From assembly GCA_029263395.1 (NCBI GenBank), contig JAJCXO010000005.1, positions 1 to 64,000 on the forward strand: DNA of 64,000 nt, in the 5' to 3' direction. The notes under the pieces are model-generated. The model saw only the letters and a list, made by a program, of their open reading frames with translations, was not told the origin of the DNA and searched no databases. Of this stretch, positions 4,761 through 6,173 are shown one piece after another. Source of the DNA: Acidobacteriota bacterium (lineage in GTDB: Bacteria > Acidobacteriota > Thermoanaerobaculia > Multivoradales > J023). The translations under genes were made by a program, and so were the position numbers. Each line of letters begins with the position of its first letter. Within the stretch, counting starts at the first letter, position 1.

Positions 4761-6173
4761 TCAAGAAACTGGTTTGTCGGCGGCGTCTAGCGTCAGTTCG
4801 AGGTCCTGGCGGCGATAGAGGCAGGTGCCCCGAACGTCCTCGCAGACGTAATAGAGGGCATATCCGCGCAGCGTCGCCGAGCCGCTAAAGTTGTTCGGGC
4901 TACGGACTTCGAGCTCGATCCTACGCTCTTCCGAACTGACCGCTTGCTGCGGGTTGGGCACGCTGAGCTGGCGGCTGTCGACCTGCCATCCGGTGGGTGG
5001 CTCGATCCACAGGATCAAGTCGTCGACTTCGTTGTTCCAATGTGCCTTGATTGTGTTGTTGGGGCGGAAGACAGCGTGCACTCTGCCGGTTGCGCCCGCT
5101 GCCATCTTGGCCGGTACCAGAGTGAGTTCGGCGCGGATGAACCCTCTGGCGTCGCGTCGGATCCTGCCTTCTGGGTCCGGGGATGAGCTGGCGGTGGCAT
5201 CGCCAGCAAATTGTTTGGCGGGGCTAGCGATTTCAGCTCCCCGCGGTTCAACCGGCAAAATGGCGGGTGTTTCGCCGCGAGCGACTATGTCGTGTCGCGC
5301 TTCGTCGACCCAATCGTAAAAGGGGTAGGGTTTGTCCAGCCGGGGGCCGTATTGCTGAATGCGACGTCGCCAAATGTATTGATTCGGGTTGATGTCGAGG
5401 GCGATACCCCAATGTTCGACGGCGCGTTGAAAATCGTCCGGTTGTCTGCGGTCGGAATCGTAGCGACTGCGGTAGGCCACTCCGAGGCGGAAGTGGGTTG
5501 AGCCGTGGCCAGGATCGGCTACGAGGGCCTTTTGGTAGGTTGCGATGGCTCGATCGAGTTCGGCCTCGTCACCCCAAAGATACAGCGCTTCAGCGTAACG
5601 GCGTTTGGCTTCAGTGGTTGTGGCTGCCGCCGCTAGCTTTGTGAGGTTGGGTTGTGTGACCGTGGGCGGCTGGCTCGTCGGCGCCGTTGCATCTAGGGCC
5701 AGAAATGCATCGAGTGACTCGAGCTTGCCACGGAAGCGGATCACTCCCAACTCGTCGATCAGTAAGGTGATCGGAACCACCTCGACGCCGAGCAGATTGA
5801 GTGAGTCGACCATAATCGGCCACCCCATCTGCTTCCATTGCATGAACAACCGGGTTCGGTTGGGATGTTGCTCCTGAACGATCCCCACCATTTGGATCGT
5901 CCCGTCGTCTTGCAGCTTCTTGGTTGCGTCGTGCCACCCGGGCACGTGTCGTCTACAGCCCGCTCACCAGGAAGCCCACACATGCAGGACCAGTTTGCGA
6001 CCGCGGAAGGTACCGAGCGAAACCGGCTTTCCGTCGTCCAGAGCGGGCAGGGTGAGGTCTGGAAATACGTCACCGACGCGGAACTCTAGAGGTGCCGCGT
6101 CAACGGGTCCGAGTGCAACCATCATCATCGCCCATGCTAAAACGACGAGGGACAGAACGCGAGAAGTCTTCAT
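4761..6173 (-). CDS. TlpA/thioredoxin-like selenoprotein with TPR and DsbD-like C-terminal domain (in-frame TGA = Sec)
   Basis: Two open stretches in one frame are joined by a single TGA at 5966-5964. The first begins with a signal peptide (MKTSRVLSLVVLAWAMMMVAL, then GPVDA) and a redoxin start (RVGDVFPDLTLPALDDG) and ends at LVLHVWASW. The TGA follows, then AGCRRHVPGWHDATKKLQ. Thioredoxin-fold oxidoreductases have WASWCxxC here, so the TGA sits exactly on the first redox cysteine and gives U-A-G-C. The fold continues to the cis-Pro strand VEVVPITLLIDELGVIRFRG. Next come tetratricopeptide-like helices (AIATYQKALVADPGHGSTHF; AVEHWGIALDINPNQ) and a beta-rich C-terminal domain with YYVCEDVRGTCLYRRQDL, resembling the DsbD alpha domain. 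Total 470 residues with Sec at 70. The hairpin at 5930-5946 supports recoding. A pseudogene is less likely, since both sides are intact. The machinery genes (selA/B/C/D) are not in this window. Confidence 0.85.
5930..5946 (-). promoter_or_regulatory. candidate bacterial SECIS hairpin
   Basis: On the minus-strand RNA, CGUGCC and GGCACG pair as a perfect 6-bp stem around the loop CGGGU. The loop begins 23 bases after the UGA, and its second base is G. Known bacterial SECIS elements sit inside the coding region with the apical loop about 16-37 bases past the UGA and a G in the first two loop positions, so spacing, size and loop fit. The lower part of the stem is poorly paired by eye. Confidence 0.65.

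Follow-up and report, generated by a model that had tools for sequence, protein, structure and literature searches.

Thioredoxin-like selenoproteins with a UxxC motif are well known. Among the closest described systems is NCBIfam family NF041054 (ResA-like WAxxUGC motif-containing protein), which places selenocysteine (Sec) in the first redox position and continues into a helical, TPR-like region. It spans about 354 positions and has no C-terminal CX6C domain, and its motif is U-G-C, unlike the U-A-G-C described below. The TlpA/ResA/CcmG proteins share the fold, the position of the redox motif, and export, but they use CxxC and have neither a TPR region nor an Ig-like CX6C domain. Two groups in published selenoprotein tables (PMC13188914, PMC9312934), the “Redoxin family protein” (PF08534, UxxC; HEU0032618.1, MBA3499694.1) and the “Prx-like thiol:disulfide oxidoreductase” (PF00578, UxxC), have UxxC within an AhpC-TSA/Redoxin domain. 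For both groups the papers report just the domain and the motif, with no mention of a TPR region or C-terminal domain, and one of the listed proteins may belong to the same family as ours. Deiodinase-like selenoproteins (PF00837; NF038285) form a different thioredoxin-fold subfamily with the motif CxxUPPF, although a subset from Acidobacteriota has an in-frame TGA and the same C-terminal domain as the protein presented here.

Here, we analyzed a 64,000-nucleotide stretch (the window) from a 10.7 Mb Acidobacteriota genome, focusing on a gene on its minus strand at positions 4761–6173. The first-pass annotation had placed an in-frame TGA at the first redox residue of a thioredoxin-like protein, and translation bears this out. 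The frame runs on unshifted through ...LVLHVWASW-TGA-AGCRRHVPGW..., with the TGA as its sole interruption, and translation and family alignment together give a complete gene of 470 residues with the inner TGA taken as Sec. This TGA (5964–5966) is codon 70 and encodes the first position of UxxC. It falls where a TlpA/ResA-like domain has its first redox residue (WASW-U-AG-C), and ordinary TlpA/ResA relatives from the same phylum have Cys in that column (WATWCPPC and similar). The second residue of the motif, Cys73 (5955–5957), is invariant in the family alignment. The gene itself terminates at a second TGA (4761–4763). A standard ORF caller yields exactly the two pieces that had been anticipated, one of 69 residues (5964–6173) and one of 394 (4761–5945), and automatic annotation splits genes of this kind. 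We put the probability at about 0.93 that 6173–4761 is one genuine gene for a selenoprotein with a thiol-redox function, with UGA codon 70 decoded as Sec. A UGA-encoded conserved redox residue, accompanied by a SECIS-like element and by Sec machinery in the organism, is well supported by the data below.

The same split by the ORF caller would be expected if the TGA were genuinely a stop codon or had arisen from a sequencing error, leaving a pseudogene or two separate ORFs. We searched for homologues with six peptide patterns, none of which included the redox motif, so the resulting set of loci is not biased toward TGA. This search retrieved 80 loci, labelled as Acidobacteriota, Planctomycetota, Gemmatimonadota, Verrucomicrobiota, and a few others; most of these relatives are metagenome bins. 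One locus (L074) begins past the Sec site, and all 79 that cover it have TGA at exactly the Sec codon. Independent assemblies spanning several phyla thus share this TGA, among them L145, a genome of the same genus, and L009, which is 77% identical. With the TGA conserved in more than 80 sequences, 400 downstream residues conserved in frame in the family alignment, and a hairpin that constrains synonymous positions (below), we regard a stop or pseudogene as a negligible prospect. The TGA and hairpin found at the same place in homologues instead favor decoding as Sec. One locus (L081, near 4130) also has a TAG in frame, five codons beyond the Sec codon and inside the conserved region; it is likely a mutation or an assembly error.

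Genome surveys gave the same picture. Among 396 Acidobacteriota genomes, the family is present in 20, the window's own genome included; each match covering the site has one TGA, whose position was read directly in 18. Among 392 Planctomycetota genomes, 42 have the family; in each of them the N-terminal piece contains a single in-frame TGA, whose position was read directly in nine homologues. No full-length Cys form was found in these 788 genomes or in the 79 loci. Cys at the site occurs only among general TlpA/ResA relatives. The nearest putative Cys-type protein noted (5.5e-21) has no in-frame stop, and its match is limited to positions 27–247; a plasmid search gave generic TlpA-like matches only. 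Judged from these sequences, the family is widespread and apparently Sec-only, with Sec rather than Cys in every sequence examined. According to a 2025 paper, Cys homologues now seem to exist for all known selenoproteins (PMC12013277). Published discovery methods lean largely on such homologues, so a family apparently without Cys forms is easily missed. A Sec-only family would be a case in which to test why some proteins fail to revert to cysteine. Current estimates of selenium use by Acidobacteriota and Planctomycetota, phyla that abound in soil and sea, would be too low.

Downstream of the UGA lies the hairpin CGUGCC-CGGGU-GGCACG (5930–5946, minus strand), which we assessed by pair counts, a synonymous-codon null, model constraints, and folding. 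It has a 6 bp stem (5941–5946 paired with 5930–5935) and a 5-nt loop (5936–5940). The first-pass annotation had this sequence right but set the stem 23 bases after the UGA. That figure is the distance to the loop, whereas the stem starts 17 nt past the UGA. The published bacterial SECIS (bSECIS) model calls for a stem of 4–16 bp, a loop of 3–9 nt with G in its first two positions, a spacing of 16–37 nt, and a minimum free energy of at most -7.5 kcal/mol (PMC13188914). The hairpin fits this model, with 6 bp, 5 nt, G at loop position 2, 23 nt, and -9.9 kcal/mol, in agreement with the SECIS geometry proposed earlier.

The folding energy itself is unexceptional compared with shuffled sequences (-9.9 kcal/mol, z -0.46), and the evidence for the hairpin is instead comparative. 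In 72 sequences, 98.1% of cells are paired, versus 17–58% when the partner is slid, although 8 of the 72 lack the outermost pair. All six pairs are present in 75 of 85 sequences; with synonymous codons redrawn (200 draws), 28 were expected and the maximum was 37. The Val77 codon is GTG in 79/80 sequences and the Gly79 codon is GGG in 45/50, where each gene's own codon use predicts 31 and 11, respectively. The loop Pro and Gly/Val codons covary (CCC with GGG/GTG, CCG with GTC/GCC, CCA with GGT), and compensatory A-U pairs are seen in L052 (GUACC/GGUAC) and L140 (AUACC/GGUAU). This comparison of sequences, rather than folding energy, indicates selection on the hairpin at the RNA level, far beyond chance. 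In a clade with the motif URGC (L057, L065–L068, L071, L075, and L082), mostly labelled Planctomycetota, a SECIS-like hairpin lies 5 nt further upstream and shows its own compensatory A-U for G-C change. This is a natural relocation of the SECIS within the coding sequence.

The frame would also stay open if the TGA were read through by insertion of Trp or Cys, or by near-cognate suppression, rather than by Sec. However, an inner TGA occurs only at the redox position, and since a further TGA terminates the gene, the codon has not been reassigned throughout. Furthermore, the hairpin fits the bacterial SECIS model, and the genome encodes the full Sec machinery. A family-by-family search of the host genome for selA, selB, selC, and selD, the look that the first-pass annotation had called for, found all four: SelA (534 bits), SelB (346 bits, over its cut-off), SelD (365 bits), and selC, the tRNA-Sec (68 bits), which ARAGORN reports as SeC with anticodon tca (UCA). 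The SelD gene has its own in-frame TGA within the classical CGUAAK motif. Such alternative read-through is therefore very improbable, if slightly less so than a stop or pseudogene, and insertion of Sec is the reading we retain.

The other 19 Acidobacteriota genomes carrying the family all have tRNA-Sec and/or selA. Among 40 control genomes of the phylum without the family, 28 have tRNA-Sec and 29 have selA. Thus, many genomes of the phylum have the Sec trait, and the family was seen in none that lack it. The family gene lies near selA, selB, or selD in several loci, and besides these occasional sel genes no neighbor is common to the family loci. This occasional closeness supports a selenium connection but points to no pathway. 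Separately, we observed that the host selD (L098 3-1319, G000 contig C222) adjoins a match to SenA, the selenoneine synthase (464.5 bits, cut-off 420), and the organism therefore probably also makes selenoneine.

An AlphaFold2 model of the protein has a pLDDT of 92. Residues 1–26 (6096–6173; MKTSRVLSLVVLAWAMMMVALGPVDA) form a hydrophobic stretch and putative signal peptide, helical at 3–20 in the model, and this N-terminus makes export to the periplasm most likely. Residues 28–164 (5682–6092) form a TlpA/ResA/CcmG-like thioredoxin domain that includes U70, C73, and V133-P134. Pfam assigns it to AhpC-TSA (4e-13) and Redoxin (1e-11), and its best match among TlpA/ResA/CcmG structures has a Z score of 14.8 and an rmsd of 1.9 over 128 residues. 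V133-P134 is invariant and by position lies at the usual cis-Pro place. A TPR-type helical region follows at residues about 177–275 (5349–5645); weak Pfam TPR matches and the confident model agree with the TPR region suggested earlier. The protein ends in an Ig-like β-sandwich at residues about 340–465 (4779–5156), which matches no Pfam family. It contains Cys444 (4842–4844) and Cys451 (4821–4823), a CX6C pair. Apart from U70, C73, C444, and C451, the window protein has no Cys or Sec, and all four are invariant where covered in the family alignment.

All 46 aligned family members match NF041054, with a best E value of 2.6e-28. However, the window protein scores 79.3 bits, below the curated cut-off of 300. 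The NF041054 members L141 and L142 (WAPYUGC) have the thioredoxin domain and helical region in common with our family. These two members occur in the same order, and their U and C lie one residue closer together. We found no description of an architecture combining TPR and the C-terminal domain in the literature covered. Within that scope, three features look new: the domain architecture, the seeming absence of Cys forms, and the C-terminal domain shared with deiodinase-like proteins.

We propose that SelB and tRNA-Sec, directed by the downstream hairpin, would decode UGA codon 70 as Sec, a step for which the comparative evidence is strong. The product would be exported to the periplasm and act as a TlpA/ResA-like thiol-disulfide oxidoreductase, in which the U70 selenol would attack a disulfide or oxidised substrate and Cys73 would resolve the intermediate. 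We infer thiol-disulfide or peroxide chemistry at U70/C73. The C444/C451 pair might exchange electrons with the UxxC site, as DsbD alpha does with thioredoxin-fold partners. We give this intramolecular relay roughly even odds. Its basis is the Cys pair, since the C-terminal domain shows no DsbD_N profile match. The TPR segment may dock a partner or substrate, a role that we consider equally open to being right or wrong.

The first-pass annotation had called the C-terminal domain DsbD-like, a name that our searches do not sustain: it is an Ig-like β-sandwich that contains an invariant Cys pair and does not significantly match DsbD_N (PF11412). The hhalign probability for a DsbD_N match is 0.3%, only 2 of 40 family members match it by Pfam, at E 0.02 or worse, and a PDB sequence search gave no support. 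Modelled alone, the domain is again Ig-like (pLDDT 94). Its best structural match is a lacto-N-biosidase domain (Z 11.2), followed by complement and transglutaminase domains; nDsbD is absent among the 50 PDB structure matches listed, and a likeness of fold is still conceivable. The DsbD alpha (N-terminal) domain is itself of the Ig-like fold type. By eye, both have a Cys pair near the C-terminal end (YQGCADAGFCYPP in E. coli, YYVCEDVRGTCLYRR here), although it is CX5C in DsbD and CX6C here. The resemblance to DsbD is thus one of Cys-pair pattern and fold type only.

A generic Ig-like sandwich with no significant DsbD_N match would also suit a selenoprotein in which the C-terminal Cys pair is a structural disulfide, the TPR-Ig part is a binding module, and the N-terminal domain acts by itself, drawing on an external reductant. 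We hold this arrangement to be a serious contender at somewhat under even odds. Against it, the Cys pair is invariant across phyla, and the only other hosts of the domain in the Acidobacteriota survey are thioredoxin-fold, deiodinase-like selenoproteins, which suggests a functional tie of the domain to the selenol. When the domain was searched alone in the 396 Acidobacteriota genomes, we recovered the 20 family members plus six weaker matches, all six of them deiodinase-like proteins. Five of these (L162, L163, L164, L165, and L167) combine CLTUPPF or CLTUPAF and an in-frame TGA with a hairpin such as GUCUCC-AGGUU-GGAGAC; a contig end truncates the sixth. An hhalign comparison of the C-terminal domain of one deiodinase-like protein with that of the UxxC family gave 97%. 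Every host whose site is visible carries Sec, so within this limited sample the domain is confined to Sec proteins. A selenoprotein family with no Cys counterpart, and a Cys-pair domain found only behind Sec thioredoxin folds (UxxC and CxxUPPF), could reflect a dedicated partner for exported selenols. This is a tentative proposal that we rate slightly below an even chance. The domain common to both groups hints that exported selenoproteins may have a redox partner of their own. The two deiodinase-like proteins tested against NF038285 fall far below its cut-off (45.8 bits versus 250). By eye, L162 and L165 also have EF-hand-like repeats in front.
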